Below, piece after piece: positions 47,940 to 55,710 of a stretch of 64,000 bases of DNA. Position 1 is the first letter of the stretch, and each line of letters opens with the position of its first letter. The translations under genes were made by a program, and so were the position numbers. Origin of the DNA: Rhodobacter sp. (lineage in GTDB: Bacteria > Pseudomonadota > Alphaproteobacteria > Rhodobacterales > Rhodobacteraceae); assembly GCA_030066215.1 (NCBI GenBank), contig JASJCA010000002.1:1-64000 (forward strand). Direction: 5' to 3'. The notes beneath the pieces are model-generated. The model was not told where the DNA came from, ran no database searches, and saw only the letters and a program-made list of their open reading frames with translations.

Positions 47940-48236
47940 GGGTTCGGGCGAAGGTCGAGTGACAGGAAACGCCTGTCTTTCCCGGAACCCAAAGGCTTTT
48001 GTCACCGGCTAAATCGACCGTGCATTCCATCCGACGGAAACCGGGACGTCGGCAGGTGATTTGGAAACAAAACGACTCGCATCAACCGGGTCCAAGACGC
48101 GCCGTGCAACCGGTCGAACGCTCGCCCGGCTTGCAGTGGCGTTTCGGGCCCAGCCCAGGGCAGATTTGATCTATGTCAACTTAGTTGGACGTATAGTGTG
48201 TCAATTTGAATTGACACTACTTCGGGGAGTCCAGCC
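47940..48236. promoter_or_regulatory. bchE control region with FnrL-like and PpsR-like boxes
   Basis: The last 75 bases before bchE contain TTGATCTATGTCAA (48166-48179), one base off the FNR consensus; TGTC-N10-GACG (48174-48191), a near-match to PpsR/CrtJ; and TGTCAATTTGAATTGACA (48199-48216), an exact TGTC-N10-GACA palindrome. The two PpsR-like sites are seven bases apart. A TATAGT at 48192-48197 may be a -10 element. The earlier part of the gap shows nothing. Confidence 0.82.
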
Positions 48237-49901
48237 ATGCGCATCTTGTTTGTTCACCCGAATTACCGCTCAGGCGGGGCAGAGATTGCCGGGACATGGC
48301 CGCCGGCCTGGGTCGCGTATCTGACCGGGCATTTGCGGCAGGCGGGATTCGATGATGTCGAATTCATCGATGCGATGACCGACGATATCTCCGACGCGGA
48401 CCTAGCGCAGCGGATGGAAGCGCTGAAACCCGATGTTGTGGGCGTGACGGCGATCACACCTTCGATCTACCGCGCGGAGGATGTGTTGAAGATCGCAAGC
48501 CAGGTGGTGCCCGACGCGGTACGGGTGCTGGGCGGCGTGCATGCGACGTTCATGTACAAGCAGGTGCTCAGCGAAGCGCCCTGGGTCGATGTGATCGTGC
48601 GCGGCGAGGGCGAAGAGATCTGCACCGAGCTGATGCTGGCAATCGAGGACGGGCGCTGGCCCGCCGGCCGGCACCGGATCAAGGGGCTGGCGTTCAGGGA
48701 TGGCGACGAGATCGTTGCAACGCCGGCGGCCTCGACCGTGAAGGACCTGGAGAAGATCAAGCCGGATTGGGGCATCCTGGAGTGGTCGAAATACATCTAC
48801 ATCCCGCTCGGCACGCGCGTGGCGATCCCGAACCTGGCGCGGGGCTGCCCGTTCACCTGTTCGTTCTGTTCGCAGTGGAAGTTCTGGCGCGACTACCGGG
48901 TCCGCGAGCCCAAGGCGGTGGTCGACGAGATCGAGGATCTGGTGAAGAACCACGGCGTCGGCTTCTTCATCCTCGCCGACGAGGAGCCGACCATCAACAA
49001 GAAGAAGTTCGTGGCCTTCTGCCAGGAGCTGATCGACCGGGGCCTGCCGGACCGCGTGAAGTGGGGGATCAACACGCGGGTGACGGATATTTACCGCGAC
49101 AGGGATCTGCTGAAGTTCTACCGCAAGGCGGGGCTGGTGCATGTTTCGCTCGGAACCGAAGCCGCGGCGCAGATGAAGCTCGACCAGTTCAACAAGGAAA
49201 CCAAGGTCGAAGAAAACAAGACGGCGATCCGGCTGCTGCGCGAGGCGGATATCCTCGTCGAGGCGCAGTTTATCGTCGGGCTCGACAACGAGACGCCGGA
49301 GACTTTGGAAGAGACCTACCGGATGGCCTGGGACTGGCAGCCCGATTTGGCGAACTGGTCGATGTATACGCCCTGGCCGTTCACGCCGCTGTTCCAGGAA
49401 CTGAAGGATCAGGTCGAGATCTACGATTTCTCGAAATACAACTTCGTGACCCCGATCATGAAGCCCGCGGCGATGGAGCGGGGTGAGCTTCTCGACGGGG
49501 TGATGAACAACTACCGGCGGTTCTATTCGAAGAAGGCGCTGTTCCAATATCCCTGGCGCGGCACGGGGTTCCGGCGGCGGTATCTGCTGGGCTGTCTCTA
49601 TGCCTTCCTGAAGGCCGGGTTCCAGCGCACGTTCTACGATCTCGGCAAGGCGGGCTATTGGGGGCCGCAGACCAAGAAGACGGTGGACTTCCATTTCGAC
49701 GAGACGCGGAAATTGGCCGAAGCGCAGTTGGAGGATTGGGAAGCCGCGGCCGACCGGGCGGCGCGCGCGGCGGAGCGGCGCGAGGCGGTGCGGGCGCAGA
49801 TGAAGGACCGGGCGGTGGAGCGCAAGGCGGGCTTCGCCATGCCGAACGGCGCCGAGATCCGGGCCTGCGGCGGCGGCGATCAACACATGGAGGACGCCTG
49901 A
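48237..49901 (+). CDS. bchE: Mg-protoporphyrin IX monomethyl ester oxidative cyclase, anaerobic
   Basis: 554 residues. A B12-binding-like N-terminal domain (to about 130: [41 protein letters not shown]) is followed by the radical SAM domain with CPFTCSFC (about Cys 204, 208, 211). BchE forms the isocyclic ring E of bacteriochlorophyll without oxygen in the cytoplasm, using S-adenosylmethionine and a cobalamin. It is the first gene of a bchEJ unit. Upstream FnrL- and PpsR-like boxes fit expression at low oxygen and in the dark. Confidence 0.95.
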
Positions 49902-49941: not shown

Positions 49942-50493
49942 GTGTTGCAGCTGTTGCCGGTGCTGGAGAGCGCCGGCGGGGCGGAGATGGTGTCGGCCAT
50001 GTTGGCGCGCGCCGGGGTGGCGCGGGTGCCGGATGGCTCGGCGATGATCCCCGAAGGGCAGGCGGCGCGGCTGCATCAAGTGTTGCGCGCCGAGGAGCCC
50101 GAGCGGGCGGCAGAGCTGGCCGCCGAGGCCGGGCGGCGTACCGCGGAGTACATCTTGGCGCACCGGATTCCCTGGGCGGTGAAGGGGCTGTTGCGGGCCT
50201 TGCCGCCCGGGCTGGCGGCGCGGGCCTTGGCGGGGGCGGTGTCGCGGCATGCCTGGACCTTCGCCGGGTCGGGGCGGTTTGCCGCGGTCGACCCCTGGAC
50301 CTTCGAGATCGCCGACAACCCGATCATCCGAGGCGAGTCCAGCGCGGTTCCGCTGTGCCATTGGCATGCGGTGGTGTTTCAGCGGCTTTATGGCGCGCTG
50401 GTTCACCGGGATTGCCGCTGTGTGGAGACGCGCTGCGGCGCGCAAGGCGGCGGGCTTTGCCGGTTCCGGATTTGGGTGGAGCGGTCGCTCTGA
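49942..50493 (+). CDS. bchJ: BchJ, V4R-domain protein; 5' end uncertain
   Basis: 183 residues from GTG 49942. The C-terminal part (CHWHAVVFQRLYGALVHRDC and LCRFRIW) has the V4R pattern of BchJ, which acts in bacteriochlorophyll synthesis, though its exact reaction is disputed. The homologous N-terminus IGPNAV is encoded just upstream but has no ATG in frame. An ATG at 49904, close behind bchE with GAGG upstream, reads MRVARPG and stops at 49925; one added base in the CCCGGG run would join the two. Either the start is atypical or there is a one-base loss. It lies directly after bchE. Confidence 0.85.
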   Translation: MLQLLPVLESAGGAEMVSAMLARAGVARVPDGSAMIPEGQAARLHQVLRAEEPERAAELAAEAGRRTAEYILAHRIPWAVKGLLRALPPGLAARALAGAVSRHAWTFAGSGRFAAVDPWTFEIADNPIIRGESSAVPLCHWHAVVFQRLYGALVHRDCRCVETRCGAQGGGLCRFRIWVERSL

Positions 50494-53276: not shown

Positions 53277-53280
53277 GGTG

Positions 53281-54411
53281 GTGCTTGCCCCGAATGACGA
53301 AACGGACTTGGCCGAGGCGGTGGCGGGGGCCGCGGGGCCGCTGCGGGTGGTCGGCGGCGGGACCCGGCCCATCGGCAAGCCGGTGGCGGGCGAGGTTCTG
53401 TCGGTGGCGGGGTTGTCGGGGATATCGCTTTACGAGCCGGGCGCCTTGACGCTGGTGGCGCGGGCGGGGACGCCGGTGGCCGAGGTCGAGGCAGCATTGG
53501 CGGCGGAGGGGCAGCGGCTGGCCTTCGAGCCGATGGAACACCGCGGGCTGCTGGGGACGTCGGGGGAGCCGACGATCGGCGGCGTGGTGGCGGCGAATGT
53601 CTCGGGGCCGCGGCGGGTGCAGGCCGGGGCGTGTCGGGATTTCCTGTTGGGCGTACGCTTCGTCGACGGGCGCGGCACGGTCCTGAAGAACGGCGGGCGG
53701 GTGATGAAGAACGTCACCGGCTACGACCTGGTGAAGCTGATGGCGGGGTCCTACGGCACCTTGGGCGTGCTGTCGGAGGTGTCGTTCAAGGTGTTGCCCG
53801 CCCCGGCGGCGGTGGCGGTGCTTTTGATCGAGGGGCTGGACGACGGGCAGGCGGTTCGGGCGATGGCGGCGGCGCTGGGCTCTCCGTTTGAGGTGACGGG
53901 CGCGGCGCATACGCCCAAGGGCGTCGACGGCGCGCCGGTGACGATGATCCGGATCGAGGGGTTCGAAAGCCAGGTGCGCTATCGCGCCAGCGCGTTGGCG
54001 GACGTGCTGGCCGAGTTCGGCGAGATCGCGATCGAGACCGATCCGGAGCGGACGCGCGCTGGCTGGGCCTGGGTGCGCGACGTGGAGCCGTTTCACGTCC
54101 TCCCCGGCGATGTCTGGCGGCTGTCGGTCAAGCCCTCGGACGGGCCCGAGGTCGCGGCGCGGGCCGAGGCGGACGGGCTGCTTTACGACTGGGGCGGCGG
54201 GCTGGTCTGGGTTCTGGTGCCGGAGGGCACCGATCTGCGGGCGCGGCTGGGAGCGTTTGAGGGCCACGCGACACTGGTGCGCGCCTCCGAGGCGACGCGC
54301 GCGACGCTGCCGGCGTTCCAGCCCGAGCCGGCGCCGCTGGCGGCGATCGCGGCGGGATTACGCGAGAAATTCGATCCGCGGGGCATCCTGAACCCGGGGC
54401 TCATGGGGTAG
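53281..54411 (+). CDS. glcE: Glycolate oxidase FAD subunit GlcE
   Basis: 376 residues from GTG 53281; GTG 53278 is also possible but too close to AAGGAG. FAD-binding region with VVGGGTRPIGKP and LLGTSGEPTIGGVVAANVSGPRR, typical of GlcE. It is the second flavin-like subunit of glycolate oxidase. It is three bases from glcF. Confidence 0.9.
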   Translation: MLAPNDETDLAEAVAGAAGPLRVVGGGTRPIGKPVAGEVLSVAGLSGISLYEPGALTLVARAGTPVAEVEAALAAEGQRLAFEPMEHRGLLGTSGEPTIGGVVAANVSGPRRVQAGACRDFLLGVRFVDGRGTVLKNGGRVMKNVTGYDLVKLMAGSYGTLGVLSEVSFKVLPAPAAVAVLLIEGLDDGQAVRAMAAALGSPFEVTGAAHTPKGVDGAPVTMIRIEGFESQVRYRASALADVLAEFGEIAIETDPERTRAGWAWVRDVEPFHVLPGDVWRLSVKPSDGPEVAARAEADGLLYDWGGGLVWVLVPEGTDLRARLGAFEGHATLVRASEATRATLPAFQPEPAPLAAIAAGLREKFDPRGILNPGLMG

Positions 54412-54414
54412 GCG

Positions 54415-55710
54415 ATGCAGACGACATTCACCGAAGCGCAGCTCAAGGACCCGGCGATCCAGCGGTCGAACGAGATCCTGCGGTCTTGCGTGCATTGCGG
54501 GTTCTGCACGGCGACCTGCCCGACCTACCAGGTGCTGGGCGACGAACTCGACAGCCCGCGGGGCCGGATCTACCTGATCAAGGACATGCTGGAAAACGAT
54601 CGGCCGGCGGATGCGAGGACGGTCAAGCATATCGACCGCTGCCTGTCCTGCCTGGCCTGCATGACAACCTGCCCGTCAGGCGTGCATTACATGCATCTGG
54701 TCGACCACGCGCGGGCGCATATCGAGCGGACTTATCGGCGGCCGCTGTTCGAACGGGTGCTGCGCTGGACGCTCGCGCGGATCATCCCCTATCCCACGCG
54801 GTTCCGGCTGGCGTTGCTGGGCGCGAAGATCGGCAAGCCTTTCGCCTTTCTGATGCCGGACGCGCGGCTTAGGGCGATGCTGGCGATGGCGCCAAAGCAG
54901 GTGCCGCCGGTGTCGCGAAACGACGATCCGCAGGTGTTCGAGGCGTTGGGCGAGCGCAAGCTGCGCGTGGCGCTGATGACAGGCTGCGCGCAGCGGGCCT
55001 TGAACACGGACATCAATGACGCCACGATCCGGCTGCTCCGGCGGCTCGGCTGCGAGGTCGTCATCGCCCGCGGCATGGGCTGTTGCGGGGCGCTGGTGCA
55101 TCACATGGGCAAGGAGGCCGAAAGCCACGCGGCCGCGGCGCGGAACATCGGCGCCTGGATGGTCGAGGCGAACGGCGCGGGGCTCGACGCGGTGGTGATC
55201 AACACCAGCGGGTGCGGCACGACGGTGAAGGATTACGGGCACATGTTCCGGGGGCATGCGCTGGCCGAGGATGCGGCGCGGGTCTCGGAGCTGGCGGTGG
55301 ATGTCAGCGAGCTGCTGATGCGGCTCGAGGTGCCGGAAGGGGCGGCCAAAGGCCTGCGGGTGGCCTATCACGCGGCCTGCTCGCTGCAGCACGGCCAAGG
55401 GATCAAGACCTACCCTAAGGACCTGCTGAAACGCGCCGGGTTCGAGGTGGTGGAGCCGGCGGATGCGCATCTGTGCTGCGGTTCGGCGGGGACCTACAAC
55501 CTTATGCAGCCCGAGATCTCGGGGCAGCTGAAGGACCGCAAGGTGCGGACGCTGGAAGCCAAGGCTCCCGACGTGATCGCGGCCGGAAACATCGGCTGCA
55601 TGATGCAGATCGGCGGCGGAACCGAGGTGCCGGTGGTGCACACGGTCGAGCTGATCGACTGGGCCACCGGCGGGCCGAAACCGCCGGCCCTGCTGGCCGC
55701 CAAGCGCTGA
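54415..55710 (+). CDS. glcF: Glycolate oxidase iron-sulfur subunit GlcF
   Basis: 431 residues. Two 4Fe-4S motifs: CVHCGFCTATCP (about 23-34) and CLSCLACMTTCPSG (about 75-88). Two CCG-type domains follow (GMGCCGALVHHMGKE and YHAACSLQHGQ with CCGSAGTYNLMQPE). GlcF takes electrons from GlcD/GlcE to the quinone pool. It ends the operon; two stem-loops follow the stop. Confidence 0.93.
   Translation: MQTTFTEAQLKDPAIQRSNEILRSCVHCGFCTATCPTYQVLGDELDSPRGRIYLIKDMLENDRPADARTVKHIDRCLSCLACMTTCPSGVHYMHLVDHARAHIERTYRRPLFERVLRWTLARIIPYPTRFRLALLGAKIGKPFAFLMPDARLRAMLAMAPKQVPPVSRNDDPQVFEALGERKLRVALMTGCAQRALNTDINDATIRLLRRLGCEVVIARGMGCCGALVHHMGKEAESHAAAARNIGAWMVEANGAGLDAVVINTSGCGTTVKDYGHMFRGHALAEDAARVSELAVDVSELLMRLEVPEGAAKGLRVAYHAACSLQHGQGIKTYPKDLLKRAGFEVVEPADAHLCCGSAGTYNLMQPEISGQLKDRKVRTLEAKAPDVIAAGNIGCMMQIGGGTEVPVVHTVELIDWATGGPKPPALLAAKR

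Follow-up and report, generated by a model that had tools for sequence, protein, structure and literature searches.

The gene bchE encodes an oxygen-sensitive enzyme that carries out the oxygen-independent formation of ring E of bacteriochlorophyll, and PpsR and FnrL elements were reportedly computed for four purple bacteria by Liang in a conference paper of 2009. In R. sphaeroides, a one-base change in the FNR box of bchE cut FnrL-driven reporter activity by ~90 percent (PMC4263372), a ChIP table for FnrL lists the string TTGACATGCATCAA as the bchE site (PMC2908626), and ChIP of PpsR places sites at bchEJ, for which an expression change of -9.60 is given (PMC4344238). For R. capsulatus, the CrtJ motifs of bchEJGP are described as distant from each other, the separation being 45 to 500 bp in a group of promoters (PMC6199135), CrtJ remains bound to the bchE promoter when oxygen is absent (PMC5362033), and at bchC one palindrome spans the -35 region and the other the -10 region (PMC5362033). 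Tandem PpsR sites are described as having gaps of seven or eight bases (PMC2654016). The sign of the FnrL control of bchE in these relatives is disputed. In an fnrL mutant of R. sphaeroides bchE expression was unchanged or changed the wrong way (PMC4263372), the gene is listed as activated by FnrL in R. capsulatus and repressed by it in R. sphaeroides (PMC4634722), the effect in R. capsulatus has been called indirect (PMC9603517), and in the accessible part of a study on Dinoroseobacter shibae bchE is not named among the FnrL-activated genes (PMC5398030). An overlap of FnrL and PpsR sites at bchE is not stated in the accessible parts of the open literature, which should not be interpreted as a claim that it is absent from print.

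The bchE locus described here lies in the window (viz. the whole stretch of 64,000 nucleotides that was analysed) from a Rhodobacter sp. genome. The bchEJ promoter of R. sphaeroides 2.4.1 is similar to it in having an FnrL/CrpK box, TTGACatgcATCAA, which is found at -67 rather than at -71, and a PpsR site 33 bp on. However, in R. sphaeroides the box and the PpsR sites share no bases, whereas in the window, where six bases are shared, such a separate arrangement is not seen, and two adjacent PpsR-type palindromes are present, the first of which overlaps the box.

Sites upstream of bchE and their putative regulators

The features of this region are listed in the table below. The first-pass annotation had described an FNR-type box overlapping a TGTC-N10-GACG sequence, with a further PpsR-like site seven bases on and both PpsR-like sites within 63 bases of the ATG of bchE, and this description is borne out by our analysis. 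As read from the sequence, the six bases TGTCAA (48174-48179) are common to the FNR box and PpsR site 1, site 2 follows after a gap of seven bases (48192-48198; 25 bp from start to start), site 1 starts 63 bases before the ATG, and the gene is identified as bchE by its profile match. With two palindromes, a seven-base gap and a ppsR gene in the genome, the pair of sites may be regarded, by analogy with relatives in which the action of PpsR is known, as a putative tandem PpsR operator, and with a box close to TTGAT-N4-ATCAA and an fnrL gene in the genome, bchE is likewise a putative FnrL target. A few kb after bchEJ, glycolate oxidase genes are found at 53278-54411 (280.1 bits, just under the GlcE cut-off of 284) and 54415-55710 (452.8 bits, passing the GlcF cut-off of 333).

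Table. Positions of the regulatory sites and genes of the bchE region, numbered from the first base of the window
Feature	Sequence	Positions	Strand	Remarks
FNR/FnrL-type box	TTGATCTATGTCAA	48166..48179	+	one mismatch to TTGAT-N4-ATCAA; right half GTCAA lies within PpsR site 1
PpsR-type site 1	TGTCAACTTAGTTGGACG	48174..48191	+	one mismatch (GACG end)
PpsR-type site 2	TGTCAATTTGAATTGACA	48199..48216	+	perfect TGTC-N10-GACA
Putative -10 hexamer	CAATTT	48202..48207	+	inside site 2; suggested by left/right asymmetry of site 2 columns
bchE		48237..49901	+	TIGR02026, 824.9 bits (cut-off 481.35)
bchJ		49942..50493	+	next gene, same strand; TIGR02019, 165.8 bits (cut-off 74.3)

A lack of ppsR or fnrL, which by the annotation would have spoken against its interpretation, is not seen; both genes are encoded in this genome (G000; 4.55 Mb in 211 contigs, 89 percent complete). 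The ppsR gene is located at C16:45160-46479 (TIGR02040, 509 bits, cut-off 275.4), and just upstream of it is a gene for a B12-binding-domain protein, which is aerR/ppaA-like by its place and domain. The fnrL gene is found on contig C143 (NF045989, 446.9 bits, cut-off 300; N-terminal CSNCPIRHRAVCAKC) and adjoins a hemN-like frame truncated at the end of the stretch. Two more CRP-type genes, recognised by one Pfam model only, are present in addition to fnrL. Contig C16 also carries a photosynthesis cluster (bchC, crtB, crtI, crtA, crtD, bchG, bchF and bchN) with eight exact TGTC-N10-GACA sites, whereas bchE and bchJ are on a separate contig, C70. Further, the gene acsF for the oxygen-using cyclase is present on C16, and therefore it is the bchE promoter that decides when the oxygen-sensitive enzyme is brought in.

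By loose consensus counts, these sites hardly exceed chance: TGTC-N10-GACA with at most one mismatch occurs 25 times in the 64 kb against 19.4 expected, which is near chance, and FNR-like sites with at most two mismatches occur 21 times against 10.2 expected, or about twice chance. Such counts are uninformative as a test of significance, and the genome's own motif and the conservation of the sites were used in their place; by both of these, the sites are more than chance. In a matrix built from the eight exact C16 sites, none of which is from the window, site 2 (48199) scores 26.4 and site 1 (48174) scores 18.6, ranking 1 and 2 of 63,983 window positions, while the third-ranked position scores 10.0 and the eight source sites themselves 16.8 to 26.1. 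When the two doubtful source sites (viz. C16:43111, inside bchN, and C16:14398, at the start of crtD) are removed from the matrix, the ranks are unchanged (27.6 and 19.3; third 9.4). For the FNR box, the pattern TTGAY-N4-RTCAA is found at 40 places in the genome, one of which is the bchE box, compared to 5 for a reversed control.

The exact composite of the box and site 1 was found nowhere else in the window's own genome. With one mismatch allowed it was found at six places, of which four are copies of a dispersed repeat and one is a ccoN/uspA box. The repeat is present on many contigs of this genome, with the core TTGATGGCTGTCGAGTCCGTAGGAC and variants of it and with arms GGGGTGGCGA and ATCGCCACCCC-like; examples are seen near position 1500 of the loci L088, L091, L092, L093 and L094, and, by eye, roughly 35 near copies are among the 62 matches of the composite-pattern search. 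No match to Rfam was found for the repeat in five loci. Due to this repeat, genome-wide counts of PpsR-like patterns are inflated.

Conservation of the sites in bchE upstream regions

The conservation was examined in 81 regions upstream of bchE, viz. those of the best 80 of 572 bchE loci, chosen by protein similarity alone, less one (L052, in which the match begins at residue 28 and there is no upstream region), with the window and R. sphaeroides added. The genome taken to be R. sphaeroides (G051) was recognised by the published PpsR site string of this species, which is found in only 1 of 394 genomes and there at the published coordinates (PMC4344238). The core TTGA-N6-TCAA is present in 75 of the 81 regions. 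The six regions lacking it (L059, L064, L067, L073, L077 and L080) lie in one Sphingomonadales-type branch of the BchE tree and were left out after this count; in the remaining 75 regions, the core box nearest to the start codon served as the reference. All counts given below for the 75 regions, or for subsets of them, thus refer to the best 80 of 572 loci.

The sites stand in a near-fixed geometry. Between the box and the start codon, the strict pattern TGT-N12-ACA begins at +8 (32 occurrences), +32 (8), +33 (43) or +34 (4) in these 75 regions and at no other offset, and it is lacking altogether in four of them (L029, L033, L058 and L084). The site 2 pattern at +32 to +34 accounts for 55 occurrences in the 75 regions. 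The window is not among the 32 with the pattern at +8 and is counted for site 2 only, because the last base of its site 1 (ACG) breaks the strict pattern, which its site 2 fits. When the halves of site 1 are considered separately, TGTC is present at +8 in 50 of the 75 regions, and the far half, GAC, is present at +22 in 45, whereas each of the other offsets between 14 and 32 has no more than 3. The two halves occur together, with GAC at +22 in 39 of the 50 regions having TGTC at +8 and in 6 of the 25 without it (Fisher 1.1e-5, not corrected for kinship); over five supported independent pairs this link runs in the same direction in 3.0 and in the opposite one in 0.3 on average, which, with kinship allowed for, is not significant, the pairs being too few.

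In the first-pass annotation, the sharing of bases between the FNR box and the first repressor site was regarded as special to this genome. This part of the description does not stand, as such sharing is found in the bchE promoters of many Rhodobacterales and is absent from the presumed R. sphaeroides. In the latter, the FNR box of bchE (TTGACATGCATCAA) is at -67 and the PpsR site at -34, i.e. 33 after the start of the box, which is also the commonest offset for site 2 among the 75 regions; the second published PpsR motif is found at -552, inside ppsR, and site 1 is absent at bchE. The base that was mutated in the earlier work (the T of TCAA at -57; PMC4263372) falls in this box. However, as R. 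sphaeroides bchE has no site 1, it will be incorrect to interpret this mutation as a test of the shared bases.

By a rule-based call, site 1 is missing in 35 of the 75 regions, R. sphaeroides included, and site 1 is therefore not essential for the control of bchE. On the BchE tree, a quick tree with many weak forks and a midpoint root, 14 to 15 changes are needed to explain the distribution of site 1, which occurs to either side of the midpoint split; judged from this tree, the site has often been lost or gained. A loss of site 1 where ppsR adjoins bchE (site 1 present in 5 of 22 such regions and in 35 of the 53 others; Fisher 8.5e-4) was considered and set aside as confounded by kinship, since the tree shows 3 changes of adjacency and a single supported independent pair is left. 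Similarly, a trade-off between the quality of site 1 and that of site 2 (Spearman -0.53 in 73 regions, i.e. the 75 less L058 and L084) is not established when kinship is allowed for. At least one site with no more than one mismatch is present in 69 of these 73 regions. The eight Sphingomonadales-type BchE proteins (viz. L058 and L084 and the six without a core box) are placed among the Rhodobacterales in the tree. Within 170 bases, no PpsR-type site is found in their promoters even with one mismatch allowed, and in 6 of the 8 the FNR core is absent; their bchE genes have perhaps been acquired by gene transfer, with a different control.

The columns of site 2 also bear on the position of the promoter. 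In 66 sequences from the best 80 of 572 loci, this palindrome shows a stronger constraint in its left half than in its right half at position 9 (T in 53 vs 21, p 9e-6), with similar differences at position 4 (C in 50 on the left vs 29 on the right, p 1.9e-4) and position 5 (A in 64 vs 51, p 0.002), these p values being uncorrected for kinship. This asymmetry would tentatively fit a -10 hexamer, nAnnnT, at site 2 positions 4-9, although position 4 is C and not the T of a -10, and an alternative frame at positions 9-14 is possible. The conserved A at +37 was set aside as a sign of a -10, as TGTCA is also part of the PpsR motif of this genome. From the putative -10 to the centre of the FNR box the distance is 32 bp, centre to centre, which is the spacing of class II FNR promoters of the E. 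coli type with the box at -41.5. The bchE promoter would thus be like these promoters in its spacing, and it differs from them in that a repressor site is built into the box.

FnrL boxes and PpsR operators at other genes

A search for the composite pattern in 394 genomes of the family gave 79 matches in 72 genomes, compared to 4 for a reversed control. In the 30 loci that were fetched (31 matches), 19 of the composites lie 62-74 bases before bchE, and the other 11 include three before ccoG, one before bchC, one at bchC in reversed orientation, one before a gene for a universal stress protein and five without an assigned gene; the 48 matches outside the fetched loci include that of the window. 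The composite is thus mostly, but not only, a bchE pattern. The FNR/PpsR-site-1 pattern before ccoG (TIGR02745) is seen near position 1500 of L102, L104 and L112, without a site 2, and may be due to chance or be a sign of PpsR at oxidase genes.

For comparison, 58 FNR core boxes within 600 bases upstream of a ccoN match were used as controls, from 30 genomes all of which were picked, not at random, from genomes with at least one composite match. Read in the ccoN orientation, TGTC at +8 is present in 0 of the 58 boxes and GAC at +22 in 2; read in the uspA orientation, TGTC at +8 is present in 18 of the 58, of which 0 of 18 also have GAC at +22, and GAC is present in 1 of the 58 overall. Both halves of site 1 are therefore found together in none of the 58 control boxes. 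The FnrL boxes of ccoN/uspA are similar to those of bchE in having an asymmetric form (TTGACATGGATCAA), which in reverse complement (TTGATCCATGTCAA) is also seen among the bchE boxes, and they differ in that no PpsR palindrome overlaps them among the 18 boxes with TGTC. The one exception, the composite before the universal stress protein gene of a single genome (G024, L122), is from outside the 30 control genomes. As TGTCAA occurs in ccoN/uspA boxes without a PpsR site, this half alone should not be interpreted as a sign of PpsR. For the same reason, the asymmetry of the bchE FNR box (position 5: T58, C17; position 10: G64, A10, C1; 75 regions from the best 80 of 572 loci) was rejected as proof of a second constraint, many ccoN/uspA boxes being asymmetric without a PpsR site.

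A further comparison is provided by bchC, for which 30 genomes were used, all of them picked from composite-carrying genomes and two of them (G196 and G274) added because a composite was seen there at bchC. Tandem PpsR sites spaced 24-26 bp are present in 28 of the 30 (spacing 26 in 25 of the 28), and of the two genomes without them, one (L165) offers no more than 87 bases of upstream DNA, too few to include the sites. An FNR core box before bchC is found in none of the 28 genomes that were not chosen for one, and thus in 2 of 30, viz. the two that were added. The bchC operator is like that of bchE in having two PpsR palindromes over one promoter. However, its upstream site reads TA or CA at bases 5-6 in 22 of 28 and AA in 2 of 28, whereas the FNR core demands AA at bchE, and the usual spacing at bchC is 26. 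In G196 (L110, ~1500, minus strand), the bchC box, site 1 and site 2 are in nearly the same register as at bchE, with site 2 at +34, and this single, anecdotal case suggests that a PpsR operator can acquire an FNR box through the gain of one half-site. At bchC of G274 (L099 / L177), the promoter-proximal PpsR site is overlapped by an FNR box in reversed orientation. Since TGTCAA already supplies one FNR half-site, the same design may also evolve independently at further PpsR operators.

A putative composite operator, its alternatives and its significance

In our interpretation, to which we assign a probability of about 0.7, the bchE promoter carries a composite operator, in which tandem PpsR sites lie on the promoter and the upstream half-site doubles as half of the FnrL box, so that the two proteins would exclude each other. 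With oxygen, PpsR would occupy both palindromes and hide the FnrL box and the probable -10 region, site 2 covering the -10, and site 1 the -35 side together with half of the FNR box. At low oxygen, FnrL would bind the box and activate transcription from what is probably a class II position. FnrL and PpsR could not both hold site 1, since both would need the same GTC bases, and the exclusion that the first-pass annotation proposed is thus plausible. We infer binding, mutual exclusion and promoter position, and the directions of the effects are taken by analogy from R. sphaeroides and R. capsulatus, the light/redox role of PpsR likewise coming from studies of relatives. The disputed sign of FnrL control in these relatives counts against this interpretation, as do the imperfect site 1 of the window and the occurrence of the composite at genes outside photosynthesis. 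A stronger version of this interpretation, which we regard as possible but less likely than not, is that selection has maintained the half-site as a genuinely exclusive switch, with FnrL acting in part as an anti-repressor by displacing PpsR from site 1. In this connection, the published finding that CrtJ persists at the bchE promoter of R. capsulatus in the absence of oxygen (PMC5362033) means that the loss of oxygen alone need not clear the repressor, and, if this holds here, it makes the competition more than a formality.

It is possible to argue that, as in R. sphaeroides, the FNR box and site 2 are the only working elements, with site 1 a partial relic or a chance occurrence and FnrL and PpsR acting without contact, since the genome taken as R. 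sphaeroides has the box and site 2 at 33 without site 1, site 1 is missing in 35 of 75 regions (best 80 of 572 loci), and in the window it has one mismatch. We consider this unlikely in view of the rank of site 1 in the window by the own-genome matrix (2 of 63,983), the placement of GAC exactly at +22 in 45 of the 75 regions, and the occurrence of site 1 in both parts of the BchE tree as divided at the midpoint. It is distinctly improbable that the far half of site 1 (TTGAC near +20) serves as a sigma-70 -35 hexamer and not as a PpsR half-site: the GAC columns at +22 to +24 (76, 64 and 81 percent) are more conserved than the TT columns at +20 and +21 (52 and 51 percent) in the 75 regions, and the window reads TTGGACG at this place, although TTGACA fits a -35 hexamer and the same half of the upstream PpsR site at bchC is often TTGACA. 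The two roles, -35 and PpsR half-site, could also coincide.

A different question is which protein uses the FNR box. The R. sphaeroides CrpK uses the same bchE box (PMC4263372), RedB directly represses bchE in R. capsulatus (PMC9603517), and the window's genome has the two further CRP-type genes noted earlier, so that a CrpK-like, RedB-like or Dnr-like regulator might act on the box instead of, or besides, FnrL. However, a clear FnrL is encoded in this genome and the box fits the published FnrL motif, and we therefore regard this as quite unlikely.

Returning to the composite operator, it is a conserved variant of two well-known elements, and what is new is their fusion in many relatives, which the species studied apparently lacks. 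As the species studied seems to lack the shared bases, results obtained with it may not carry over to those relatives that have them. If FnrL does act as an anti-repressor at site 1, then the lineages lacking this site, R. sphaeroides among them, would regulate bchE by a different logic, and the natural set of bchE promoters with and without site 1 makes it testable whether FnrL and PpsR compete or act independently.
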